Translations under genes and position numbers: made by a program
From: Fimbriimonadaceae bacterium
Lineage (GTDB): Bacteria > Armatimonadota > Fimbriimonadia > Fimbriimonadales > Fimbriimonadaceae
Assembly: GCA_019454105.1 (NCBI GenBank)
Contig: CP075364.1
Location: 2,421,362-2,485,361, forward strand
Length of the DNA stretch: 64,000 nucleotides
Reading direction: 5' to 3'
Notes under the pieces: model-generated
What the model was told of the DNA's origin: nothing
The model's input: the letters and a program-made list of their open reading frames with translations, nothing else
Database searches by the model: none
In this document: one piece after another, positions 3,551 through 18,501 of the stretch
How the letters are laid out: each line of letters opens with the position of its first letter
How positions within the stretch are numbered: the first letter of the stretch is position 1

Positions 3551-5458
3551 ATGGGTGGTAACGAGGCTCTAGGAACGCAAGCAGTCGGTTTCACCTGGAG
3601 ACGGATAGGTCGAGCGGTCAAGACGATCGCCCTCGACCTCTTGCTGATCTTGGTGGCGTTGCTGGCCACTATCGGCCTGGTACAGGGATTCTCGGGCGTC
3701 GCCGTGCTGCGCGAGACGCTGACAGACCTGGCACCAACAGTGCTCGGAGCCGCGCTTGTCGCGATCTTAGCGCTTCGGCTCTACCGGATCGAAGCCCGAT
3801 ATGTCGGTCTCTATGACATCGCGAACTTGACTTGGGTCGCTGTGGCCGCCACACTCGGACTGGCGGTTTGCCTCAGCGTTCTGGTTCCCGGCAGGTTTGA
3901 CCACTCAGTCGGTGCCTTGCTCGCCTTGAACGGGCTCTTGGCCCTGGCGCTCCTGACCACCAGTCGCGTCGCCCAACGGGTGCATGCGTCCGGTTGGCTG
4001 GCCCCGCCGCCTCGCTCCAGTCGACAACGACGGGCTTTGATCGTCGGGGCAGGGGACGCGGGCGAGTCTCTGCTTCGCGAGGTCGCCAAGCTCGATCCTC
4101 CTGAGCACGCCGTCCTTGGGTTCGTCGATCCAGACCCCTCGTGCCACGGTTCCACCATTCATGGACTGCCTGTTTTCGGTGGGATCGACGAGATCATGGT
4201 CCTGAGTCAGAGGTTCGCGGTCGAAGACATCCTCGTCGCTCTGCCTGAAGCCAGCTCGGACGAGATGAGGCAGATCTTCAATCAGGCAGTAAAGACGACC
4301 GCGAGAGTCCGGACCATGCCTGCCCTTTCGCGGTTCATGCTGGGAGGGGCCAACGTTCTCCCCCTCATGCGCGAGGTCAACGTCGAAGATTTGCTTAGCC
4401 GAGCCTCCGTGCGCGAAGAGATGGCGCCGGTAGCCCGCTACCTGAGTGGCGAACGAGTCTTGATCACGGGGGGCGGGGGATCCATAGGCTCGGAACTCGC
4501 CCGCCAGGTGGCGCGGCTCTCACCCGCCAGCCTCATCCTCGTGGGCAAGGGCGAGAACTCGATCTTTGAAATCGATCAGGAACTCCGCGAGAAGTTCGGG
4601 TTTGCTGCGACGCCCGTCATTTGCGACATCCGCGACCCGAAGGGCGTCGAAGCGATCTTCGCCCTCCATCGGCCCAGCATCGTCTTCCACGCGGCGGCGC
4701 ACAAACATGTGCCCCTGATGGAGGCGGTGCCCATCGAAGCGGTCCGCAACAACGTGGTGGGCACGCTCAACATGGCCGAGTGCGCCATCCGCAACGGCAT
4801 TCAGAAGTTCATTCTGGTCTCGACCGACAAGGCCGTTAATCCTTCGAACGTCATGGGGGCGACCAAGAGGGTAGCGGAAATGATCGTTTCCGCCTTGGCG
4901 GCCCGAACCGAGACAAGCTTCTCTGCCGTCCGCTTCGGCAATGTGCTGGGCAGTCGAGGTTCCTTGATCCCGATCTTGAAGAGACAGATTTCGAGCGGCG
5001 GGCCGGTGACGGTCACTCACCCCGACATGACCCGATTCTTCATGACGATCCCTGAAGCGGTCCAACTCATCGTCAAGGCGGGGGCCATGGGCGAGCGAGG
5101 CGAGATCTACATCCTTGACATGGGCGAGCCGGTCAGCATCGACCAACTCGCCAAGGACATGATCCGGCTCCACGGCCTTGTGCCAGGAAGAGACATCGAG
5201 GTCAAGTACACCGGGATCAGACCTGGAGAGAAACTGCGCGAGGAACTCGTGTACGACGCAGAGGACCTTAAACCGAGCCATCACGCCAAGATCAGGGTCG
5301 TGAGCAACCAACAACCGATTGATTGGGAATGGCTCAAAGAGCGCCTCGCCCACTTGGAGGACCTCTGTGCCGACGGAGACTCGGCCGCCGTCCGCGCGTT
5401 CTTGATGGAACTTGCTTGGGGTAAGTCGTTGCCGCCTGTGCCTACGAAGGGCGTTTAA
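3551..5458 (+). CDS. CapD/FlaA1-type NDP-sugar 4,6-dehydratase, membrane form
   Basis: 635 aa. ATG 3551 is chosen over ATG 3497 because AAGGAG (3537-3542) lies 8 nt before it. Four TM helices occupy about residues 15-130; a first nucleotide-binding domain starts at about 160 (ALIVGAGDAGES) and an extended SDR domain at about 302 (LITGGGGSIGSE). The active-site region reads STDKAVNP...VMGATKR; Met at the usual Tyr position is normal for the long inner-membrane dehydratases (PglF, WbpM type). It probably converts UDP-GlcNAc or a similar nucleotide sugar to the 4-keto-6-deoxy sugar for surface polysaccharide or glycoprotein. Sugar genes also lie at 31-34.5 kb and 43.5 kb. The exact substrate is not readable. 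Confidence 0.88.
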   Translation: MGGNEALGTQAVGFTWRRIGRAVKTIALDLLLILVALLATIGLVQGFSGVAVLRETLTDLAPTVLGAALVAILALRLYRIEARYVGLYDIANLTWVAVAATLGLAVCLSVLVPGRFDHSVGALLALNGLLALALLTTSRVAQRVHASGWLAPPPRSSRQRRALIVGAGDAGESLLREVAKLDPPEHAVLGFVDPDPSCHGSTIHGLPVFGGIDEIMVLSQRFAVEDILVALPEASSDEMRQIFNQAVKTTARVRTMPALSRFMLGGANVLPLMREVNVEDLLSRASVREEMAPVARYLSGERVLITGGGGSIGSELARQVARLSPASLILVGKGENSIFEIDQELREKFGFAATPVICDIRDPKGVEAIFALHRPSIVFHAAAHKHVPLMEAVPIEAVRNNVVGTLNMAECAIRNGIQKFILVSTDKAVNPSNVMGATKRVAEMIVSALAARTETSFSAVRFGNVLGSRGSLIPILKRQISSGGPVTVTHPDMTRFFMTIPEAVQLIVKAGAMGERGEIYILDMGEPVSIDQLAKDMIRLHGLVPGRDIEVKYTGIRPGEKLREELVYDAEDLKPSHHAKIRVVSNQQPIDWEWLKERLAHLEDLCADGDSAAVRAFLMELAWGKSLPPVPTKGV

Positions 5459-5476
5459 ACCCAGTATTCAAGAGGG

Positions 5477-6577
5477 ATGGCGGGCACTCATTACGACACG
5501 CTCGGCGTCAAACAGGACGCGACCCAAGAGGAGATCAAGGCAGCCTATCGCAAGCTGGCACGGGAACTGCACCCAGATGTGACCCCAGATCCTGCCGCCA
5601 CCGAGAGGTTCATGGAGGTTCAAAAGGCTTACGAGGCCGTCTCGGACGCAGGTCGCCGACGCACCTATGACAACTTACTCGCCCTCCAAAAGCAACGTCT
5701 GGCCGAAGAAAAGAGGATGCGAGAAGCTGAGGAACTGCGCCGTCTCGCCGAAGAGCGGATGCGAGATAAAGGCCCTTCCCCCGTGGTCGATCTTGCCGAA
5801 ACGCAGAGGCTCACGAACCTTCTGAACGCAGGGAAGTTCGTCGAGGCGGAGTCGTTGGCCCGGGCCATGATCGCGAGGGAGCATCGCCAACCCGTGCCGC
5901 ACGCAGTGTTGGGTGACATCGCCCGGCTTCGCGGAGAAGTGGCCGAGGCCCTTCAGCACTACTCGATGGCGGCGCAGTACGAACCCAAGAACCTGGTCTA
6001 TCAAAGGAAGTGCGAAGAGCTTCTCGCTTCGCCTGGGGTCGGAGCCGCAGGAAAGAAGGCCGCCGAATATGTGCCGCAGGTCTCAGTCGGGCCGCTGCTC
6101 GTGGTCGGGTTCGTCGTCATCGCTGCCGCGGTTTTCGCCGCGCTCAATCCGATGGCTCCTCTCAAGATCGTCCTGGTTCCCGAGTGGACCATTTGGACGC
6201 TGGTCTCCCTTTTCGTTTCCGGAGTCGTGGTCGGGAGCGGAATGGCCGCAGCAGGAGCCCTCGGCAACTTTGACACGACCGCAGGCACGGCCATGATGAA
6301 GGTTCCTCTGCCCGTCAGGATCGGACTCCTGTCGATCGCTTGGTTTTGGCTGGCGGTGGGCGTGTATTTCTTCTTTGGCCAAACCCAGAACACGTTCAAC
6401 CGCTCGCTCTCGGTCTTGTTGGGCGCGGTCGCAGGCACGGTTGTTGTCTTTGCGCTGGCCGGGTGGTCTAGAAGCGGAGATCTGGCTCTCCAAACCTTGC
6501 TCTGGGGAGGGAACGTCGCCTACTTTGGATCGCTAGCCGGGTGGTACGTGGCCGACAGTCTCAAGCGGCAAGGATGA
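5477..6577 (+). CDS. J-domain protein with TPR-like region and C-terminal TM helices
   Basis: 366 aa. Residues 1-66 are a J domain with the HPD motif at 32-34, so it can stimulate a DnaK ATPase. A charged helix (70-110) is followed by a TPR-like pair (about 115-185: LLNAGKFVEAESLARAM, AEALQHYSMAAQYEP). Five hydrophobic segments fill the C-terminal half. It lacks the G/F and zinc-finger parts of DnaJ, so it is a type III J protein that may recruit DnaK to the membrane. It starts 18 bp after the dehydratase with an AAGAGGG ribosome-binding site, suggesting co-transcription. Confidence 0.85.
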   Translation: MAGTHYDTLGVKQDATQEEIKAAYRKLARELHPDVTPDPAATERFMEVQKAYEAVSDAGRRRTYDNLLALQKQRLAEEKRMREAEELRRLAEERMRDKGPSPVVDLAETQRLTNLLNAGKFVEAESLARAMIAREHRQPVPHAVLGDIARLRGEVAEALQHYSMAAQYEPKNLVYQRKCEELLASPGVGAAGKKAAEYVPQVSVGPLLVVGFVVIAAAVFAALNPMAPLKIVLVPEWTIWTLVSLFVSGVVVGSGMAAAGALGNFDTTAGTAMMKVPLPVRIGLLSIAWFWLAVGVYFFFGQTQNTFNRSLSVLLGAVAGTVVVFALAGWSRSGDLALQTLLWGGNVAYFGSLAGWYVADSLKRQG

Positions 6578-6608
6578 GCCCCAGACTGGTCGGTACACTG
6601 CGCTCGGG

Positions 6609-8528
6609 ATGCCCACCCAGACCACTGTCCTCACCGCGATCCCATACGTCAACAGCACGCCCCACATCGGGAATGTGTTGACCACCCTGAGCGGCGACGT
6701 CACCGCACGCTATCTTCGGATGCGCGGCCACGCTGTCTGGTTCCAGGTAGGCACCGACGAGAACGGGCTCAAGATTAAGGAAGCGGCCGAGAACGCTGGC
6801 GAACCAGTCCAACCGTTCGTTGACCGTATCGCCAAGCGGTTCGCCGATATCTTCGACGGGCTCAAGATCCAGTCTGACGACTTCGTCCGGACCACCGAGC
6901 CGCGCCACGTCAAGGCGGCTCAGGCATTGTTCGCCAAGCTCCAAGAAAACGGCCACATCTACCAAGGGGTCTACGAGGGCTGGTACGACGTCTCGACCGA
7001 GACCTTTTTCCGTGAGGAGGATTTGGTCGACGGCAAGTCGCCCGATGGCAACGAAGTGCGGTGGGTTAGCGAGACGAACTACTTTTTTCGGCTCAGTTCG
7101 TTCCAAGGGGCGCTGGAGGAAGCTTACGCCATAGGCACGATCCGGGTGGTGCCGGAAACAAGGCAGAACGAAGTCCTCTCCTTCGTCCGACAGGGCCTGC
7201 GCGACGTCTGCGTCTCCCGATCGAACCCAGGGTGGGGGATCCCCGTACCAGGCGACAACAGTCAGGTCGTCTATGTTTGGTTCGACGCCCTGATCAATTA
7301 CTTGACGACGACTGGATGGCCCGACGCTTCTGATTGGCGCGAGAAATGGCCCCCGGTCGTCCAATGGCTCGGCAAGGACATCCTGACCCGGTTTCACGCG
7401 ACGCTTTGGCCAGCCATGCTTCTGGGCGCCGGTTTCGAGATGCCCAAAGTCGTCGTCGGGCACGCCTGGATCCTGCTTGGCCAAGAGAAGATCTCTAAGT
7501 CCAAGGGCAACGTCGTCGAACCGCTCGTGCTCGCTGGCGAGCTTGCCGAGCGGGCGGGGATCTCGCAGACGGTGGCCGTTGACGCCCTCCGGATCTACCT
7601 CGTCTCGACGATGGGCTTCGAGAACGACACGACGTTCACCTATGAGGAGTTCGACCGCCGTTACAACAGCGATCTCGCCAATGACCTAGGGAACGCCCTC
7701 AACCGGTCGCTCAGCATGGCCCACAAGTTCTTGGGCGACCGAGCCACCGTGCCCGACGCCCCGATCGATCCTGACGCCCTCGCCGCTGCCGCCACCGCCA
7801 AAGCCGGATGCGAACGGGCGATGGAGGACTACCGGCTCGACCGTTACTGCGACTCTGCATGGGGCCTGGTGCGCTATCTGAACAAGGCGATCGACTCATG
7901 GGCGCCCTGGCAACTGGCGAAGTCCAATGACCCGAAACTGGCCAGCGTCTTGCGGTCGATGCTGTTCTGCCTGCGCACCACCGAGGGCTTCGTCCGTCCC
8001 CTGGCTCCCGATGTCGCCGACGAGATGGCGTCGCAAATCGGGTTGCCCCCGCTCACAGATTGGGTATCAGTCGCCGACCCCGAGTGCCTCCCGCCCGGAA
8101 AGCCGATCGGCCATCCCCGGCCCATTTTCCCCAGGCTCGAAGCCAAAACGACCCCTTCCAGTGTCCCCATGGAAACCCAAGAAAAACCCGTCCAAACCAC
8201 GCCTGTCCTCGAATTCGCCGATTTCGCCAAAGTGAGCCTCAGGGTCGCCCGGGTGATCGAAGCCGAGCCCGTCGAGAAGAGCGAGAAGCTCCTGAAGCTC
8301 CAAGTGATGATCGGCGAGGAAAGGAGACAGATCATCGCCGGAATCGCGAAGAGCTACGCGCCGGTCGATCTCATAGGCCGCCAGATCGTGGTCGTGGCCA
8401 ATCTGAAGCCTGCCAAGCTCATGGGGCACGAAAGCCAAGGCATGGTTCTGGCCGCCGACGACGCTGACGGTACCGCGATACTGCTCCAACCTGAGCGCGA
8501 GTCCGCCGAAGGGGCCAGCGTCCACTAG
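6609..8528 (+). CDS. metG: Methionyl-tRNA synthetase with C-terminal tRNA-binding domain
   Basis: 639 aa class I synthetase charging tRNA-Met. HIGN at 19-22 and KISKS at about 294-298 are the two ATP-binding signatures, with the anticodon-binding helical bundle between about 350 and 500. The last roughly 100 residues (from about 536: FAKVSLRVARVIEAEPVEKS) form an EMAP/Trbp111 domain, joined by a Pro/Thr-rich linker. No zinc-knuckle CxxC pair is evident. TACACT (6594-6599) lies 9 nt before the ATG with no ribosome-binding site, so the mRNA is probably leaderless. Its TAG stop overlaps the stop of the convergent yraN. Confidence 0.95.
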   Translation: MPTQTTVLTAIPYVNSTPHIGNVLTTLSGDVTARYLRMRGHAVWFQVGTDENGLKIKEAAENAGEPVQPFVDRIAKRFADIFDGLKIQSDDFVRTTEPRHVKAAQALFAKLQENGHIYQGVYEGWYDVSTETFFREEDLVDGKSPDGNEVRWVSETNYFFRLSSFQGALEEAYAIGTIRVVPETRQNEVLSFVRQGLRDVCVSRSNPGWGIPVPGDNSQVVYVWFDALINYLTTTGWPDASDWREKWPPVVQWLGKDILTRFHATLWPAMLLGAGFEMPKVVVGHAWILLGQEKISKSKGNVVEPLVLAGELAERAGISQTVAVDALRIYLVSTMGFENDTTFTYEEFDRRYNSDLANDLGNALNRSLSMAHKFLGDRATVPDAPIDPDALAAAATAKAGCERAMEDYRLDRYCDSAWGLVRYLNKAIDSWAPWQLAKSNDPKLASVLRSMLFCLRTTEGFVRPLAPDVADEMASQIGLPPLTDWVSVADPECLPPGKPIGHPRPIFPRLEAKTTPSSVPMETQEKPVQTTPVLEFADFAKVSLRVARVIEAEPVEKSEKLLKLQVMIGEERRQIIAGIAKSYAPVDLIGRQIVVVANLKPAKLMGHESQGMVLAADDADGTAILLQPERESAEGASVH

Positions 8529-8896
8529 TCGTCATCGGGCGGCCTCAGAACCGGTCTCGGGGCATGGAAGGCCCCAATGTGATGGCGGAGACCGCCAGGG
8601 AAGACAGCGATCACGTCAAACCGGCACCGCTTCTGATGGGCTCCGGTCTTGGCTAGATAAGCGTCGGCAGCTTGGGAGATCCGTGCGACCTTGGTGTGGT
8701 CAATGGCGGCCTCCGGCGGCTGTTTCGTTCGGTATTTCACTTCAACGAAAACGAGAGTCTCGTCGTCAAGGGCGACCAGGTCGATCTCGCCGCCTGCCGC
8801 CCGGAATCTGCGCGCGATCAATGTATAACCCAGAGACAGAAGGTAATCCGCGGCCGAGTCCTCGTGTCGCTCGCCTTCGGCCCTTCTTCCGGTCAA
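8525..8896 (-). CDS. yraN: YraN family (UPF0102) nuclease-fold protein
   Basis: 123 aa. It has the family pattern GGEIDLV (E37, D39) and FVEVKYR (E52, K54), the D-ExK active site of Holliday-junction-resolvase-like nucleases; the N-terminal GRRAEGERHEDSAADYL helix is also typical. Biochemical role in bacteria is unsettled. Its ATG overlaps the rnhB stop (ATGA), and rnhB-yraN is a widespread pair. Confidence 0.92.
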   Translation of the reverse strand: MTGRRAEGERHEDSAADYLLSLGYTLIARRFRAAGGEIDLVALDDETLVFVEVKYRTKQPPEAAIDHTKVARISQAADAYLAKTGAHQKRCRFDVIAVFPGGLRHHIGAFHAPRPVLRPPDDD

Positions 8897-9504
8897 ACCG
8901 CCCCCAGGTCGAGTCGCAACTGGCCGAGGCGCGCTACCGGCGCGAAGGTCGCGCGGTGCGCTGGCGACGGGCCGAGTCGCTCAAGGGCTTCGAGATGCTC
9001 GGGGGTTCCATAGCCAAAGTGAGTGGCGAACCCGTAGCCCGGGTGCTCCGCGTCAAGCCCCACCATGATCTCGTCGCGAGTGACTTTGGCAAGAATCGAA
9101 GCGGCCGCGACCGCCGCGTTCTTGGCGTCGCCTCTGACCAGGGGAAAGCAGGGGCACGGCACGATAGGCGGAACGTGGGGCCCGTCGATCAAGGCGGAAC
9201 AGGGCCTCACCGACAGTGTGCGAAGAGCCCTAGCCATCCCTTCCATCGAGGCCCAGAGCACGTTGAGGGCCTCGATCTCTTGAATCGTGACGACTTGGAC
9301 GGACCAAACGGCTTGGCGCTTGATCACGGTGGCCGCATCACGTCTGGCTTGGGGCGAAAGGGTCTTGCTGTCTGCGATGGGGGTCACGTCGAACCCAGAC
9401 GGCAAGACGACGGCGGCACAGGCCATGGGGCCGGCCAGGGCCCCTCGGCCAGCCTCGTCGCAACCGGCAATGCCAGGCTCGAACGTCAGCCCCACATAGG
9501 GCAT
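8893..9504 (-). CDS. rnhB: Ribonuclease HII
   Basis: 203 aa. RNase HII nicks DNA at misincorporated ribonucleotides. Seen are GCDEAGRG (D16, E17), the internal Asp in SALIDGP and the late Asp in AKVTRDEIM, together the DEDD active site. The length matches the family. It overlaps yraN by 4 nt and forms a two-gene operon with it. Confidence 0.95.
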   Translation of the reverse strand: MPYVGLTFEPGIAGCDEAGRGALAGPMACAAVVLPSGFDVTPIADSKTLSPQARRDAATVIKRQAVWSVQVVTIQEIEALNVLWASMEGMARALRTLSVRPCSALIDGPHVPPIVPCPCFPLVRGDAKNAAVAAASILAKVTRDEIMVGLDAEHPGYGFATHFGYGTPEHLEALERLGPSPAHRATFAPVARLGQLRLDLGAV

Positions 9505-9541
9505 GATACTGGAGCCCTCAGGGCCCGTTTCAAGTCGGCGC

Positions 9542-9547
9542 TAAAAT
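9542..9547 (+). promoter_or_regulatory. Likely -10 box of tRNA-His
   Basis: TAAAAT lies 12 nt before the tRNA. A good -35 cannot be identified in the GC-rich sequence upstream. Confidence 0.4.
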
Positions 9548-9558
9548 AAGCGACCCAC

Positions 9559-9636
9559 GGCGGGTGTAGCTCAGTTGGTTAGAGTGCCAGATTGTGATTC
9601 TGGAGGTCGGGGGTTCGAGACCCCTCATCCGCCCCA
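9559..9636 (+). tRNA. tRNA-His (GTG)
   Basis: Cloverleaf with acceptor GCGGGTG / CATCCGC, D-loop AGCTCAGTTGGTTAGA, anticodon stem CCAGA/TCTGG with loop TTGTGAT (anticodon GTG) and T-loop GGTTCGAGACC. G at 9559 is the extra G-1 of tRNA-His, facing C73 at 9633. The CCA end (9634-9636) is encoded. Confidence 0.97.
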
Positions 9637-9643
9637 CCAGACC

Positions 9644-9946
9644 TCACTCGCCAGAGTCCGCCTGGTTCACCGAAGATCCGCCCGCCTTGGAGGCCGCGCC
9701 CCGGGCTGCGTCTTTGGCCGCTTGGCCGACACCGCCCATACCGCCTCCGCCGACGCTCTCGCCTCCTGTGACCGGCGACGCCCCGCCCAGGGCCGGTGAC
9801 GTGACGCCCACTCCAGAAGAGCCTTCGGATGTCGTGGCCGATTCGGATCCGCCCATCTGCTCCAAGGCGTTGCTTTGTTCGGTCGGAGGTTCGCTCGGGG
9901 AGCACCCAAAAACCAGGAGTGCGACAAAGGGCCAAATCCTGCGCAT
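9644..9946 (-). CDS. Small Gly/Ser-rich lipoprotein
   Basis: 100 aa. Signal peptide MRRIWPFVALLVFGC with a lipobox ending at C15. The rest is low-complexity Ser, Gly, Thr and Ala with no recognisable domain. It is probably lipid-anchored after export. It converges on tRNA-His, ending 8 bp from it. Some uncertainty remains because compositional bias can create spurious frames, but the lipobox supports a real gene. Confidence 0.6.
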   Translation of the reverse strand: MRRIWPFVALLVFGCSPSEPPTEQSNALEQMGGSESATTSEGSSGVGVTSPALGGASPVTGGESVGGGGMGGVGQAAKDAARGAASKAGGSSVNQADSGE

Positions 9947-9974
9947 GGCACCATTCTAGCTGATGCGCGTGGGC

Positions 9975-9980
9975 TACACT
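9975..9980 (+). promoter_or_regulatory. -10 box of the uvrA N-half gene
   Basis: TACACT sits 7 nt before the ATG at 9988, predicting transcription start at or next to the start codon. Confidence 0.5.
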
Positions 9981-9987
9981 TGTCCAC

Positions 9988-11913
9988 ATGTCTCACGACA
10001 AGATCGTGGTCGTCGGCGCCCGTGAGAACAATTTGAAGAACGTGACGGTCGAGATCCCTCGCGACCGGCTCGTCGTCATCACCGGGCTCAGTGGCAGCGG
10101 CAAGAGCAGCCTCGCTTTCGACACGATCTATGCCGAGGGCCAGAGGCGGTATGTCGAGAGCCTCAGCGCCTACGCCCGCCAGTTCCTGGGCCAGATGGAC
10201 AAGCCCGACGTCGACCATATCGAAGGGCTCTCGCCTGCGATCTCGATCGACCAAAAGAGCGCGAGCAAGAACCCCCGCTCGACTGTCGGCACCGTGACAG
10301 AGATCTACGACTACCTCCGGATCCTCTTCGCCCGTGCTGGGACGCCGATTTGCCCGAATGGCCACGGGCCCATCGCCCGACAGTCGACCGACACGATCGT
10401 CGACGAGGCCGCCTCATTGCCAGAAGGCACCCGGCTCCAAGTCCTCGCCCCTGTGGTGCGCGGGCGCAAAGGCACCTATCAAAAGGAGATTCGCGAGATC
10501 CAACAGGCCGGATTCGTCAGGGTCAGGGTCGATGGCGACATGTACGAGGTCACCGACGACATCCCGATGGATCGGTACAAGCAGCACACGATCGAGGTGG
10601 TGGTCGACCGCGTCGTGATCAAGGAAGGGATCGACCGAAGGCTCGCCGAGAGCGTCGAGACCGCCCTCAAAATGGGCAAAGGGCTCGTCACTCTCAGCTG
10701 GGATGCCCCTGACGCCGCCACCCAGGAACGGACGTTCTCGGAGCACTACGCCTGCCCCGAGTGCGGCTTCAGCATGCCGGAGCTGGAACCTCGGATGTTC
10801 TCGTTCAACTCGCCTTATGGGGCCTGCCCGGAGTGCACCGGGCTTGGAACCAAGACCGAGTTCGACCCGGCCCTGGTCATCCCCGACCCCCGGTTGCCAT
10901 TGCGGGACGGGGCCATCGCCCCTTTCGTCTACAAGAGCGGCGAGACCAAGGACTGGTGGCCGGACGTTCTCGACGCGGTCGGTCGCGCCGTCGGGTTCGA
11001 TGCCTCCCATCCGGTGGCCGAACTCACCGAGGAGCAAATGCGGCCTGTGTGGGAAGGTCTCGACGAGCCGGTCACCGTCCAGATGCGGTACGGAAAGAGC
11101 GAGCGGAGCTTCCGCACCCAGTGGCACGGCGTCTTGAGCGTTCTTAAGCGCAAGTACGAGCAGACCGAGAGCGAGTGGGTCAAGAACGACCTCGCCCAAT
11201 ACATGAGCACCCGGCCGTGCCCGGCTTGCGGCGGGCGGCGGTTGAAGCCGGAAAGCCTAAGCGTCCGCCTGCCCGGGCCCGGATCGGCCGAGGATGTGTC
11301 GATCGCCGACCTGACCGGGCTCTCGGTCGAGAAGGCAAACGAGTTCTTCCAGGAACTTCCACGTACTCTTTCGGACCGGCAGTTGAGAATCGGAGAGCGG
11401 GCCGTGAAGGAGATCCAAGAACGCCTGCGCTTCCTGGTCGATGTCGGTCTGGGTTACCTCAGCCTCGACCGCAACGCGAACACGCTCGCCGGCGGCGAGG
11501 CCCAGCGGATCCGGCTTGCCACCCAGATCGGGTCGGGCCTCATGGGCTGTCTCTATGTGCTGGACGAACCCAGCATCGGCCTCCACCAGCGTGATAACGC
11601 CAAGCTGATCGAGACCCTGAAGCGCCTGCGCGACCTCGGGAACACCGTCCTGGTGGTCGAGCACGACGAGGACACGATGCGCGCCTCTGACTGGCTGATC
11701 GACCTGGGCCCTGGGGCCGGGGAGCACGGGGGCAGGATCGTCAACCAGGGCGACCTGGCGACCTTCCTCGCGAACGACTCTCCCACGAGCCGCTACTTGA
11801 ACGCAACCGAGCAGATCGAGGTGCCTAAGCAGCGGCGCCGGCCAAGAAGCCCCCTGCCGATCGCTGGCTCCCAAACTGATCGAGAGCTTCGAGTGAAGTC
11901 CAAGAACAAGTAA
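9988..11913 (+). CDS. uvrA: UvrA N-terminal half (first ATPase module)
   Basis: 641 aa, equivalent to about the first two thirds of UvrA, the damage-recognition ATPase of nucleotide excision repair. Walker A GLSGSGKSS is at 33-41. The UvrB-binding and insertion regions follow, with a four-Cys zinc site (CPEC...CPEC, about residues 256-280). The ABC signature LAGGEAQR is at about 501 and Walker B LYVLDEPSIGLH just after. It reaches the conserved IEVPK linker and then ends in a basic tail (LRVKSKNK) and TAA. The second module is a separate gene at 17500. All motifs are intact, so this looks like fission, not decay. TACACT 7 nt before the ATG suggests a leaderless mRNA. Confidence 0.95.
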   Translation: MSHDKIVVVGARENNLKNVTVEIPRDRLVVITGLSGSGKSSLAFDTIYAEGQRRYVESLSAYARQFLGQMDKPDVDHIEGLSPAISIDQKSASKNPRSTVGTVTEIYDYLRILFARAGTPICPNGHGPIARQSTDTIVDEAASLPEGTRLQVLAPVVRGRKGTYQKEIREIQQAGFVRVRVDGDMYEVTDDIPMDRYKQHTIEVVVDRVVIKEGIDRRLAESVETALKMGKGLVTLSWDAPDAATQERTFSEHYACPECGFSMPELEPRMFSFNSPYGACPECTGLGTKTEFDPALVIPDPRLPLRDGAIAPFVYKSGETKDWWPDVLDAVGRAVGFDASHPVAELTEEQMRPVWEGLDEPVTVQMRYGKSERSFRTQWHGVLSVLKRKYEQTESEWVKNDLAQYMSTRPCPACGGRRLKPESLSVRLPGPGSAEDVSIADLTGLSVEKANEFFQELPRTLSDRQLRIGERAVKEIQERLRFLVDVGLGYLSLDRNANTLAGGEAQRIRLATQIGSGLMGCLYVLDEPSIGLHQRDNAKLIETLKRLRDLGNTVLVVEHDEDTMRASDWLIDLGPGAGEHGGRIVNQGDLATFLANDSPTSRYLNATEQIEVPKQRRRPRSPLPIAGSQTDRELRVKSKNK

Positions 11914-11954
11914 AGTTGCGAGTACTCATTCCGCCGGGGGGGTACGGTTTGTCC

Positions 11955-12329
11955 ATGAAGTCGTGGCTTCTTCTTGCATGCGGGCTTCCTTTCTTGTTGA
12001 TCGCAGACCTCTCAGATTCAGGCCGGGGGAGGACCCTGGGCTCGGAGGTCGATTCCGTGGTTATGGCCCACACTTGGCCAAACACTGAATCGCCCTGCAG
12101 CTACCGTTCCCCTTGCGCGGCTTCTGGGGTGGCAGACGCTTGCCTGACGCCTTGCATCAACCAAACGTTGGGGGGCACATCGTTCATCATCAGGGCGTCT
12201 GGCAACCCAAAATGTGCCGATGTCGTTTGTGAGCACTGGGACGATGACCACCCAAACTGCACGCCTCCGGTTACAAACGTGACGAACGTCTATAGACGAG
12301 GATGTGTGGAGCCCGCCACAAGAAAGTGA
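11955..12329 (+). CDS. Cys-rich secreted hypothetical protein
   Basis: 124 aa from ATG 11955. Residues 1-20 (MKSWLLLACGLPFLLIA) form a signal peptide; the mature part is short with about eight Cys (SPCSYRSPCAAS, ACLTPCIN, KCADVVCEH, NCTPP, RRGC), suggesting disulfides. No family is recognised. Its TGA overlaps the GTG start of the pseudopilin gene, so the two are translationally linked. It is the first gene in the interval separating the uvrA halves. Confidence 0.55.
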   Translation: MKSWLLLACGLPFLLIADLSDSGRGRTLGSEVDSVVMAHTWPNTESPCSYRSPCAASGVADACLTPCINQTLGGTSFIIRASGNPKCADVVCEHWDDDHPNCTPPVTNVTNVYRRGCVEPATRK

Positions 12330-12913
12330 CCGCCGGATGGACGCTGATTGAAGCGTTGGTCGCGGTGGCCATCTTGGCTGTCTTAGTCGGCCTTCTGTAT
12401 GTCGTCAGTCGGTCGGCCATCAAGGGAGCCCAGGTCACGGCCTGTATCAACCAACTGGCGCAGATTGGGAAGGCTTTGGAGCTTTACACGGGGGCCAACG
12501 ATGGGTTTTATCCAAGTCAGAGTTGGTTCGGCGTTCATGGAAAGCCGCCGAACATCGCCGGTTTCCAAGAAAGCCTTGTGGCCCATGGTCTTCCGAGAAG
12601 GATGTGGCTGTCTCCGGCGGATCCCTATGCAGGTCAAGACGTGGACAGCGAGAATGTCAACCACAGGGTGTCGAGCTATGCCATGACAAAGAAGCTGTTC
12701 TTCGCCGGTCGAGTGACCGACAGTGGCGCCTTCATCCTGGATCCATCCAGAGTCGAGCAGCCATCGGCAGTGCCCGCGTTCTACTTCGACACCTTTCTGA
12801 AGAAGGACGAGAACGCGCCCAAGGGGCTGGTGCGTTGGTCGGCGATGGGGCCTCGCGTCACAGTCCTCTATGTGGACGGACGGGCGGCCGCCGTGCCGTT
12901 CGACCAGCCTTGA
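12326..12913 (+). CDS. Type II pseudopilin-like protein (prepilin leader)
   Basis: 195 aa from GTG 12326 (GTGA overlap with the previous stop); ATG 12302 would add eight residues. The short leader ends in G, followed by WTLIEALVAVAILAVLVGLL, a prepilin peptidase site with Glu at +5 and a hydrophobic helix. The C-terminal part (DPYAGQDVDSENVNHRVSSYAM, VLYVDGRAAAVPFDQP) resembles the DUF1559/H-X9-DG type of pseudopilin-like proteins that are abundant in Planctomycetes and Armatimonadetes. It probably forms part of a pilus or secretion pseudopilus; assembly genes are not here. Confidence 0.82.
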   Translation: MTAGWTLIEALVAVAILAVLVGLLYVVSRSAIKGAQVTACINQLAQIGKALELYTGANDGFYPSQSWFGVHGKPPNIAGFQESLVAHGLPRRMWLSPADPYAGQDVDSENVNHRVSSYAMTKKLFFAGRVTDSGAFILDPSRVEQPSAVPAFYFDTFLKKDENAPKGLVRWSAMGPRVTVLYVDGRAAAVPFDQP

Positions 12914-15031: not shown

Positions 15032-16135
15032 TCATATGTGCCGCGATCGGGAGCGTCGCCAAACGAGGAGAGCGACAGTTCCCAAGAGGGTCGCCCCCCC
15101 GATCGTCATGGCAGACGCCAAGCGGTTGTTGGGGCCACCGACTGGATTGGGGTTCCTGGGCTCGTCGATGCTCCCAGGCGCTGAGGAGGACTCCCGTTCG
15201 GGAGTGCGAGAAGGTCGTCGCTGTGTTCGACTGGCGAACAAGGGTTCGCCAGTCTCGGCGTCGAAGGCCAACACCCCGTACTTCGTGCTGTAAGAATAAG
15301 ACGCCCTCGCGATGTATCGACGGGCGTTGTCCATCCCGGCCGAACTGCCAAGAATCGGACTTGCGTTGCCCCCCCGTGTGATCCCTAGCTTCAGAACCCG
15401 GTTCATCTCCTCGTCGCCTGGCCACACCCAGGCTGCTTCCGCTCCGAAGCCGCGAGCGGCCTCCTCGGCATAGAGTCCGGCCAGGTGCCTCCGGGCAGTC
15501 TCGACCGCCTTGGCCTTGTCCATCACCCGGGCGGGAGGGACGAACTCCCAACTCACGGAACAGGAGAACAGGTAGAGATTTCCTGTCACTGTGTCGAAGG
15601 TGACAGTGGCATGGTTGACAAACCCGTCAAAGCCTTCGACCTTTTCATGGAACTTAGCGGAGACCCGAGTCCCGTAATTGTTCGGATCGGTGAGGCCAGG
15701 GCCGTTAAACTCTGACCAAAAGATGGTTGCCCTCTTGTAGGAACCGGCCTTTTGGCTTGCCGCGCGCAGCACCGCCTCAGCCTTCGTCCAGACTTGTTCG
15801 TCGGTGGTGAGCTCCCGCTGTTTCCCGTAATCACCGGCAATGACTCTTGCGCTCACCTGATGGTCGGAGAAGCTGATCACGATCCCCTTGGTCGGGTGCA
15901 CGGATGCCCCGAAGTACCCGTCATCGCCGAGGCGCCATGCCTTGCGGCCAGACGGCGATACTTGCTCCAACTGGCAGGCGTGATTCGCCGGGTCGTAGCC
16001 GACACCGACTTGGGCAAAGAACTCAGCCAGGATTCTTCTCGCCTGAGCGGGCGTGTCAACTTGTTGCGCCTGACAGGGCAGAGAAGCCGAGGCGAGGATC
16101 AGAAATGTGAGGATGCGTGATTGAGTGTTCATCAT
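15032..16135 (-). CDS. Secreted PepSY/YcdB-like protein with C-terminal membrane anchor
   Basis: 367 aa; ATG 16135 overlaps the upstream stop as ATGA (ATG 16132 also possible). Signal peptide to about residue 23 (LILASASLPCQAQ). The body shows two alternating alpha/beta units (AQARRILAEFF ... AKAVETARRHLAGLY; KYGVLAFDAETGEPLF) resembling PepSY/YcdB-type domains, which in other proteins are inhibitory propeptides. The tail is a proline-rich linker, a TM helix (MTIGGATLLGTVALLVW) and RRSRSRHI, laid out like an exosortase-type signal but without a PEP motif. It is co-transcribed with the clan-CD-like gene before it. Domain call is tentative. Confidence 0.6.
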   Translation of the reverse strand: MMNTQSRILTFLILASASLPCQAQQVDTPAQARRILAEFFAQVGVGYDPANHACQLEQVSPSGRKAWRLGDDGYFGASVHPTKGIVISFSDHQVSARVIAGDYGKQRELTTDEQVWTKAEAVLRAASQKAGSYKRATIFWSEFNGPGLTDPNNYGTRVSAKFHEKVEGFDGFVNHATVTFDTVTGNLYLFSCSVSWEFVPPARVMDKAKAVETARRHLAGLYAEEAARGFGAEAAWVWPGDEEMNRVLKLGITRGGNASPILGSSAGMDNARRYIARASYSYSTKYGVLAFDAETGEPLFASRTQRRPSRTPERESSSAPGSIDEPRNPNPVGGPNNRLASAMTIGGATLLGTVALLVWRRSRSRHI

Positions 16136-17229
16136 AAGGGTCGGTACCATTGGGCGGCTGCGGCAAAGTTATTGCCGGTGTAAACTTTCTTGATCCGGGT
16201 GTCAACGTCCCCAAACACGTTGACCTCGTACGGCTCGTCAACAAGGTTAGTAGCCTCATCAATGTGCACAGGATGGTCTTCTTCTGAATTGCCTTCCAAG
16301 AATTCTCTCTTCGCGACATCGACGGTCTTTCCCACCCTCAAAGCTTTGAACCACCAATAAATTCGGCTTTCTCCCTCGTCTATAAAGATGGCACCAGGGT
16401 ACATGACCGTTGCTTGGTCGGTCACTTTGGTCTGGTCATACGCGTCGTAATAGGGAACGAGAATGCTGGAGAATTGGTTCGTCGGCCCACCGTCGCATAT
16501 GTCGAACATGGCGAATTGAACTGGTGGAAGACCCGTGGAGTTAAACGGAGGGAGGCCCGAGCCGTTGTGCGTCCAACGTGACGACTCGTAGTTGTACGCG
16601 TTCGGTGGCTTCGCAAAGAAAAGAGACCCTGCAGGTGTGTCGACCGTATGGGCATGCAAAACCTCGTGGCCGTGGGAGTTGACATAGTGGATCCCACTGT
16701 TCTTGACCTGCTCAGCGACGATGTCCCGAGTCCAACCACTCGTGAGGACGTACTGGAAGTAGCCTTGGTTGCCCATCATGATCGAAACAGTTTGTGCTCC
16801 CCGACCACCATCATAACCATTGAACTCGCTCAGATTGTAAGCGACCAGGCGGTTGAGGACGACCGCGCTGTTCTCTGCCTCGATCTGGTTGTCGAGGTTG
16901 TCTCGCCCCCAAACCCGGACGGTCGCCTGCGAACCATGGGTCAGGTGCGAACTGTCGAACATCACCGCGAGCGGAACTTCGAAGACGACGATCGGCCCCC
17001 CGTCGTACTGCCAGTGCTGAACAAGAAAACCCCCGACCCAAAGCTTCGCCTCGACCATATAGCTGACACGGGTCTTGACCCATCCCGACGCCCTGGCTTC
17101 CGTGCCACTGAAGTAGAGCGGCATCGCGCTTCCGGGCACAGGAACCCTCGCCTCTATCGGCTGTCCTAGGGCAAGATGGGCCAGCATTCCGGTCAGGAGA
17201 AGATGGAGAAGCCATCGGAAGCCGTACAC
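16132..17229 (-). CDS. Secreted clan-CD (caspase/gingipain-like) protein, putative peptidase
   Basis: 365 aa from GTG 17229, set by the promoter: TACACT (17242-17237) ends 7 nt before it and TTGACA lies further upstream (17268-17263). Signal peptide [21 protein letters not shown]. Residues 25-150 look like a beta-sandwich. Then [10 protein letters not shown] (H186-G187) follows one hydrophobic strand and [10 protein letters not shown] (C245) another, the His-Gly/Cys dyad layout of clan CD peptidases. The end of the domain ([23 protein letters not shown], then [11 protein letters not shown]) mirrors the C-terminus of C25 gingipain catalytic domains (GDPxL). Activity is unproven. It overlaps the membrane-anchored partner gene by ATGA. 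Proteolytic specificity is unknown. Confidence 0.65.
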
Positions 17230-17236
17230 GAGAAAG

Positions 17237-17268
17237 AGTGTACACCCCCCCTTTTGTTGCATGTCAAG
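17237..17268 (-). promoter_or_regulatory. Promoter of the caspase-like gene
   Basis: On the minus strand TTGACA (17268-17263) is followed after 20 bp, including a G7 run, by TACACT (17242-17237), then 7 nt and the GTG start. The spacer is long, so the -35 assignment is less certain than the -10. Confidence 0.45.
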
Positions 17269-17499: not shown

Positions 17500-18501
17500 A
17501 TGTCCGAAGGCTGGCTGGTGCTCCGCGGGGCGACCGGGAACAACCTGCGCGGGGTCGACGTCGCCGTCCCTTTGGGTCTGTTCGTCTGCGTGACCGGGGT
17601 GAGCGGGTCCGGCAAGAGCACCCTCGTCCAAGACACCCTCTACCCTCGCCTCATGCACGAGGTCTATGGCACCCGGGGGACATGGGCGCCTCACGAAGGG
17701 CTTGAGGGCCACGAGCAGATCGACAAGGTGATCGACATCGACCAGTCGCCGATCGGCCGGACCCCGCGTTCCAATCCCGCTACCTACACCGGCACATTCG
17801 ACATGATCCGCGACCTGTTCTCCCTGACCCCCGACGCCAAGCAGCGCGGCTACAAACCCGGGCGGTTCAGCTTCAACGTCAAGGGCGGGCGGTGCGAGGC
17901 CTGCCGAGGCGACGGGATCATCAAGATCGAGATGGTGTTCCTGCCCGACGTCTATGTCCCGTGCGAGGTCTGCAAGGGCAAGCGATACAACCGCGAGACG
18001 CTGGAAGTGCGCTACAAAGGCAAGAACATCGCCGACGTGCTCGAGATGACGGTCGAGGACGCGTGCGAGTTCTTCGCCCCCATCCCCAAGATCCACCGCA
18101 AGCTCGCGACCCTGCTCGAGGTCGGGCTCGGCTATATCCGGCTCGGCCAGCCCGCCACGACGCTTTCTGGTGGCGAGGCCCAGCGCGTCAAACTCGCCGA
18201 AGAGCTCTCCAAGCGATCGACCGGCCGCACCATGTACATCCTTGACGAGCCCACCACCGGGCTCCACTTCGAGGACGTGCGGCGGCTTCTTACCGTGCTC
18301 CACAAGCTCGTGGACCAGGGCAACACCGTCCTCGTGATCGAGCACAACCTCGACGTGATCAAGACCGCCGACTGGGTGATCGACCTCGGTCCCGAAGGCG
18401 GCACCGGCGGCGGGCGCCTGGTCGCCACCGGCACCCCGGAGGACGTCGCCGCGGTCGAAGAAAGCTGGACGGGGCGGTATCTCAAAGCCGTCTTGAGCTA
18501 G
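17500..18501 (+). CDS. uvrA: UvrA C-terminal half (second ATPase module)
   Basis: 333 aa from ATG 17500, matching the last third of UvrA. It begins exactly where module II begins ([16 protein letters not shown]). Walker [10 protein letters not shown] is at 33-41, followed by [19 protein letters not shown], the DNA-contacting zinc finger CEAC...CEVC (about 132-160), signature [11 protein letters not shown] (about 222) and Walker [12 protein letters not shown]. All motifs are intact. The protein would have to dimerise with itself and join the N-half (9988-11913) to rebuild the four-ATPase UvrA2 complex. Together the halves make 974 aa, normal for UvrA. An in-frame extension upstream to 17176 lacks similarity and is rejected. 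Confidence 0.95.

Follow-up and report, generated by a model that had tools for sequence, protein, structure and literature searches.

Two overlapping genes on the minus strand of a Fimbriimonadaceae genome raise the question of what the first gene encodes and what the second does for it. The genes, here called A and B, lie in the window, i.e., the 64,000-nucleotide stretch of contig CP075364.1 that was analyzed, in a genome of 2.74 Mb assembled as a single contig. A first-pass annotation had proposed that A is an unannotated secreted peptidase of the caspase/gingipain type and that B is its dedicated, membrane-anchored regulator or substrate. We followed both genes through the Armatimonadota by family searches, profile comparisons and a survey of intact and decayed loci (features in Table 1).

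Table 1. Features of the A-B locus, in window coordinates; A is numbered from its ATG start.
Feature	Position	Strand	Basis
Gene A, putative secreted clan CD cysteine peptidase	16132..17262	minus	Open reading frame and homologues
Signal peptide of A, about residues 1-34	17160..17262	minus	Hydrophobic N-terminus, by reading the sequence alone
N-terminal Ig-like region of A (putative), about residues 36-137 (YFSGT...MFDSSH...)	16852..17157	minus	Conserved in the family
H197, putative catalytic His in S-H-G	16672..16674	minus	60/60 relatives; aligned with CHAT HG and C25 GHG
C256, putative catalytic Cys in D-I-C-D-G-G	16495..16497	minus	59/60 relatives; aligned with CHAT (SACETG) and C25 (C-x-x-G)
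G351-D352 of the GDxxTRL tail, resembling the GDPxxRL end of C25	16207..16212	minus	40/40 members; D352 in 59/60
ATGA overlap, stop of A and start of B	16132..16135	minus	Sequence
Gene B, secreted PepSY/YcdB-like partner, 367 aa	15032..16135	minus	PepSY/DUF4901 matches of relatives; adjoins A throughout
C-terminal hydrophobic anchor of B	15062..15118	minus	Hydropathy; followed by WRRSRSRHI (15035-15061)

A carries a conserved caspase/gingipain-type signature

Protein A has 376 residues when read from the ATG at 17262 and 365 residues when read from an alternative GTG start at 17229. H197 and C256 in the ATG numbering used here correspond to H186 and C245 of the first-pass annotation, which counted from the GTG. 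Both reading frames, the signal peptide, the C25-like tail of A and the ATGA overlap are as described there, as is the placement of the two residues after hydrophobic strands: H197-G follows one strand (GIHYVNSHG) and C256 comes after a second. Gene A ends in TTA-TGA, and the start codon of B lies inside this end, giving an overlap of 4 nt.

Homologues of A are present in 44 of 291 Armatimonadota genomes, and the window's own genome contains two further full copies (39-40% identity) as well as two fragments. Among 60 full-length relatives, H197 is conserved in all, C256 and D352 in 59 each, and Y361 in 58; the sole relative without the Cys belongs to a tandem set of four A copies at locus L147. 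In a set of 25 full-length members, S104, N137, W177, H197, C256, G351, D352, Y361 and W372 are invariant. The family motifs are hydrophobic-T-H-G and P-P-I-x-F-A-x-x-D-A-C. Identity to the window's A drops to ∼19-20% among the relatives while the His and Cys stay near-invariant (at 20-40% identity). Because the His, Cys, Asp and Tyr are conserved despite an overall identity of ∼19-20%, the signature reflects more than chance.

No convincing family for A was found in Pfam, NCBIfam or PADLOC when 25 members were scanned singly, in agreement with the earlier description of A as unannotated. PF01364 (C25) and PF00656 (C14) matched none of the 25, and PF12770 (CHAT) matched a single member at E 0.11. 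A search against the sequences of solved structures returned nothing credible for A. In the N-terminal region, one family member has a weak Big_7 match (E 0.036), and we read this region as probably Ig-like. Outside Armatimonadota the search was narrow: protein searches of phages and plasmids, together with PHROGs and PADLOC, gave nothing for A-B, exact-pattern scans of general genome-contig and viral-contig collections gave no further relatives except L057, and a confinement of A-B to Armatimonadota is accordingly provisional. Promoter and terminator scans at the A-B locus gave hits at chance level only. Altogether, A appears to represent an uncatalogued secreted family with a caspase/gingipain-type active-site signature that occurs across the phylum Armatimonadota.

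Profile comparisons support a kinship of A to clan CD

Reference profiles were built from alignments of Armatimonadota members of CHAT, C25 and C14 and compared profile-profile with the catalytic part of A. First, the CHAT profile was the best match at 95.0% (score 57.6), with His and Cys both in register. Second, the C25 profile matched at 81.9%, and H-G, C-x-x-G and the closing GDPxxRL were all in register in one pass. Third, the C14 profile reached 18.9%. Reversed profiles, used as a control, scored 0.1%. With a 40-member A profile, CHAT scored 50.4 versus a maximum of 20.4 among 100 column-shuffled CHAT profiles, and the other genes of the window, serving as a second control, also reached at most 20.4. 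The N-terminal part of A matched none of the CHAT, C25 and C14 profiles, and an AF2 model of A from two sequences was unusable (pLDDT 31.5). As judged from these alignments, the kinship of A to clan CD proposed earlier is well supported, and A probably adopts a caspase-like fold.

A nevertheless differs from both of its closest matches. It shares secretion and the aligned motifs with the gingipains of family C25; however, PF01364 matches neither the relatives of A nor any protein in the window's genome, and a placement in family C25 proper is not supported. Moreover, A has an Ig-like region at its N-terminus, and a separate partner gene takes the place of the N-terminal propeptide, which in gingipains is inhibitory (PMC3677877). 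Compared to CHAT proteins, A is secreted and lacks TPRs or a large multidomain context. These alignments also bear on the idea that A is a noncatalytic adhesin with an Ig/caspase fold, in which His and Cys are conserved for structural reasons. The relative without the Cys would suit such an adhesin, but exactly the two residues that stand in register with the catalytic dyads of CHAT and C25, both of clan CD, are near-invariant, and we consider this idea very improbable.

B probably belongs to a secreted PepSY/YcdB-like family

Several lines of evidence support the assignment of B to a secreted PepSY/YcdB-like family, as predicted at the outset. PepSY (PF03413) matches were obtained for 13 of 30 B relatives (E≤1, best 2.9e-6) and YcdB/YcdC DUF4901 (PF16244) matches for five (best 1e-5), the window's own B matching neither; a B that stands alone at L053 matches DUF4901 at 2.2e-4, under the cut-off. 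Against the sequences of solved structures, B gave a weak match to a PepSY-M4 propeptide (E 0.0019). A hydrophobic N-terminal stretch is present in all 30 relatives. The C-terminal anchor and Arg-rich tail noted earlier are found in the window's B and are common in the family, although not universal: 18 of the 30 relatives have a clear hydrophobic anchor and basic tail. An AF2 model of trimmed B, computed for B alone and of low confidence (pLDDT 44), contains a helix at 314-344.

An inhibitory role in the periplasm has been proposed for PepSY-type proteins as a class, and in M4 and M36 peptidases a PepSY domain in the propeptide is paired with a secreted peptidase (PMC2954215). These peptidases belong to another clan than A, and here the PepSY part is encoded by a separate gene and probably comprises several units.

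A and B are paired across the phylum and diverge together

At the Armatimonadota loci, which were picked via A, B lies 3' of A on the same strand, mostly within a few tens of bases, and about 14 of about 30 A-B pairs have a 4-nt ATGA or GTGA overlap. At L086, B lies upstream of A. For 11 intact A genes the profile detects no B; most of these are followed, in B's place, by a secreted protein of similar size that has diverged too far to score, and are rejected as cases of A without B. Across 24 adjacent pairs, A and B distances are correlated with r=0.71, a value reached in 0 of 5,000 free permutations and in 4 of 5,000 permutations within genomes. The latter result indicates that residence in the same genome does not by itself account for the joint divergence of A and B. 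These observations support a dedicated pairing of A and B across the phylum.

Tandem arrangements were observed at several loci. L038 and L039, both in genome G024, each consist of four A-B pairs in tandem, with strong divergence among the copies of this one genome; one A in the L038 array is reduced to a fragment. At L147 (genome G032; 3559-12809), the four tandem A copies are interspersed with genes for secreted proteins of ∼400 aa, which occupy B's place and are missed by the B profile. L032 has a complete A-B pair and, immediately downstream (9818-11386), an in-frame fusion of an A remnant with an intact B, which suggests recombination between tandem copies.

B mostly outlasts A at decayed loci

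A script classed every locus found through A that was not cut by a contig edge, and flagged cases were then read by hand. The script scored 46 loci as both genes intact, 20 as A broken with B intact, two as A intact with B broken, two as both broken, and 11 as A intact with no B detected. Hand reading identified L039 as a false flag caused by a small duplicate hit and L049 as a locus at which two or more intact Bs accompany a broken A. After correction, A is broken or gutted beside an intact B at 21 loci versus one possible reverse case, L042, in which B may be naturally short. A two-sided sign test on 21:1 loci gives ∼1e-5, for loci that were found through A and several of which come from the same genomes; counted by genome, the asymmetry is 14 versus 1 (∼0.001). 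Some of the genomes are draft MAGs, and some broken A genes may reflect frameshift errors; assembly errors should, however, hit A and B alike. At L142 and at L038 (plus strand), A is gutted in frame, such that the start and the extreme C-terminus leading into B are kept and the catalytic domain is lost. In addition to the lone B at L053, extra B copies are present at L049, L050, L156 and L157.

An intact B retained beside a decayed A is expected if B is a dedicated inhibitor of A. The persistence of B without A fits an inhibitor that is costly to lack only while some A, be it the cell's own, that of a paralogue or that of a neighbor, is present. Of the two roles named in the first-pass annotation, the decay asymmetry thus favors regulator over substrate, and the dedicated pairing holds. 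B as a membrane-bound sensor or signal protein that is cleaved by A would suit an exposed, multidomain membrane protein encoded together with a putative peptidase. But there is no reason for a B that is only a substrate to persist where A is destroyed, and the PepSY relatives are described as inhibitors; we judge a substrate role quite improbable.

The same loci bear on B as a noninhibiting secretion or folding chaperone, or as a surface anchor, for A. Such a foldase or display partner would suit the cotranslation and the membrane anchor, and YpeB is reported to stabilize SleB as well as to restrain it (PMC6660665, PMC13393411). However, a cell that has lost A should no longer need a chaperone for it, and the B frame nevertheless remains open at loci with a broken or gutted A; at L053, B occurs alone. 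We therefore regard this role as unlikely, if by no means negligible.

A restrained peptidase as the favored explanation

We suggest, as a moderately probable explanation, that A is a cysteine peptidase of clan CD that is secreted and held in check by B, its dedicated PepSY inhibitor, in a manner resembling SleB and YpeB, and possibly used against neighbors. Proteolysis by A, binding of B to A, inhibition by B and the localization of the proteins are what we infer. A would be exported and would use H197 and C256 to cleave proteins in or outside the envelope. B would be translated from the mRNA that also encodes A, with coupling between the two genes, and would thus be supplied whenever A is made. 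It would be exported with A and, in the window's copy, be tethered to the membrane. B would bind A and hold it in an inactive state close to the cell that produces it; release of A or removal of B would lift this block. Cells could then lose A and would fare poorly if they kept A without B. The role of A may be in feeding, envelope processing or competition.

In Bacillus, the spore cortex lytic enzyme SleB and its partner YpeB are encoded in one operon, and the membrane-anchored PepSY protein is hypothesized to hold the secreted hydrolase inactive (PMC13393411). The A-B locus likewise has a gene for a secreted (putative) hydrolase followed by a gene for a PepSY-type protein, the anchor being clear in 18 of 30 B proteins. 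By contrast, A is a putative peptidase and SleB a peptidoglycan lytic enzyme, the window's B is anchored C-terminally, and no link of A-B to sporulation was seen. Several observations argue against the restrained-peptidase explanation: one of the tandem A copies at L147 lacks the Cys, the window's own B has no PepSY match, 11 intact A genes have no profile-detectable B, and part of the decayed A genes lie in draft MAGs, in which the frameshifts may be errors.

In a more specific version of the inhibitor model, A and B would form an interbacterial effector-immunity pair, in which A would be released to harm neighbors, B would protect the producer and its kin, and lone and extra Bs would be orphan immunity genes. 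The patchy, multicopy occurrence, the tandem arrays in G024, the decayed A genes beside intact B genes, the extra Bs and the correlated divergence would all suit such a pair. In polymorphic toxin systems, polyimmunity and distant immunity genes have been described (PMC3482391); here, adjacent and lone or extra genes in an immunity-like arrangement are present, the immunity role of B being putative. However, A has a plain signal peptide, no delivery domain or link to a secretion system was seen, and tandem pairs are equally compatible with nutritional or processing proteases. Moreover, the trafficking domain and exchangeable C-terminal toxins of polymorphic toxins are not found; instead, throughout the family, A combines a plain signal peptide and an Ig-like region with a single catalytic type. 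We consider the effector-immunity case unlikely. Should it apply, it would describe a new toxin-immunity type, so far found in Armatimonadota, in which a released caspase/gingipain-like protease is neutralized by a coupled PepSY immunity protein; the pair would spread by tandem duplication, with gutted toxin genes and orphan immunity genes as its remains. This, too, we consider unlikely.

Enzymes of this type and partners of this type are each already known; their coupled, phylum-wide, codiverging combination as two genes did not turn up in the families, structures and literature searched. To the superfamily of caspases, gingipains and separases, the A family would contribute a branch that is uncatalogued and spans the phylum. 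The dozens of diverged cognate pairs also offer a natural test of the long-standing proposal that PepSY domains inhibit secreted enzymes, in which noncognate pairs of one genome can serve as internal controls. In this respect, the decay asymmetry amounts to a genomic prediction that can be checked by simple coexpression.

The uvrA gap is incidental

As stated in the first-pass annotation, A-B sits between the two halves of uvrA, which are ∼5.6 kb apart: an N-terminal half of 641 aa at 9988-11913 and a C-terminal half at ∼17502-18501, both on the plus strand. The same split, with an N-part of ∼620-700 aa and a C-part of ∼340-370 aa, is found in many Fimbriimonadaceae genomes, and other genomes of the family have an unsplit uvrA in one frame of ∼950-1040 aa. 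Because many relatives share the split, the gap says nothing about A-B, and A-B as the disruptor of uvrA is rejected. The same gap contains an open frame at 12302-12913 on the plus strand with a prepilin-like N-terminus (WTLIEALVAVAILAVLVGLLYV).
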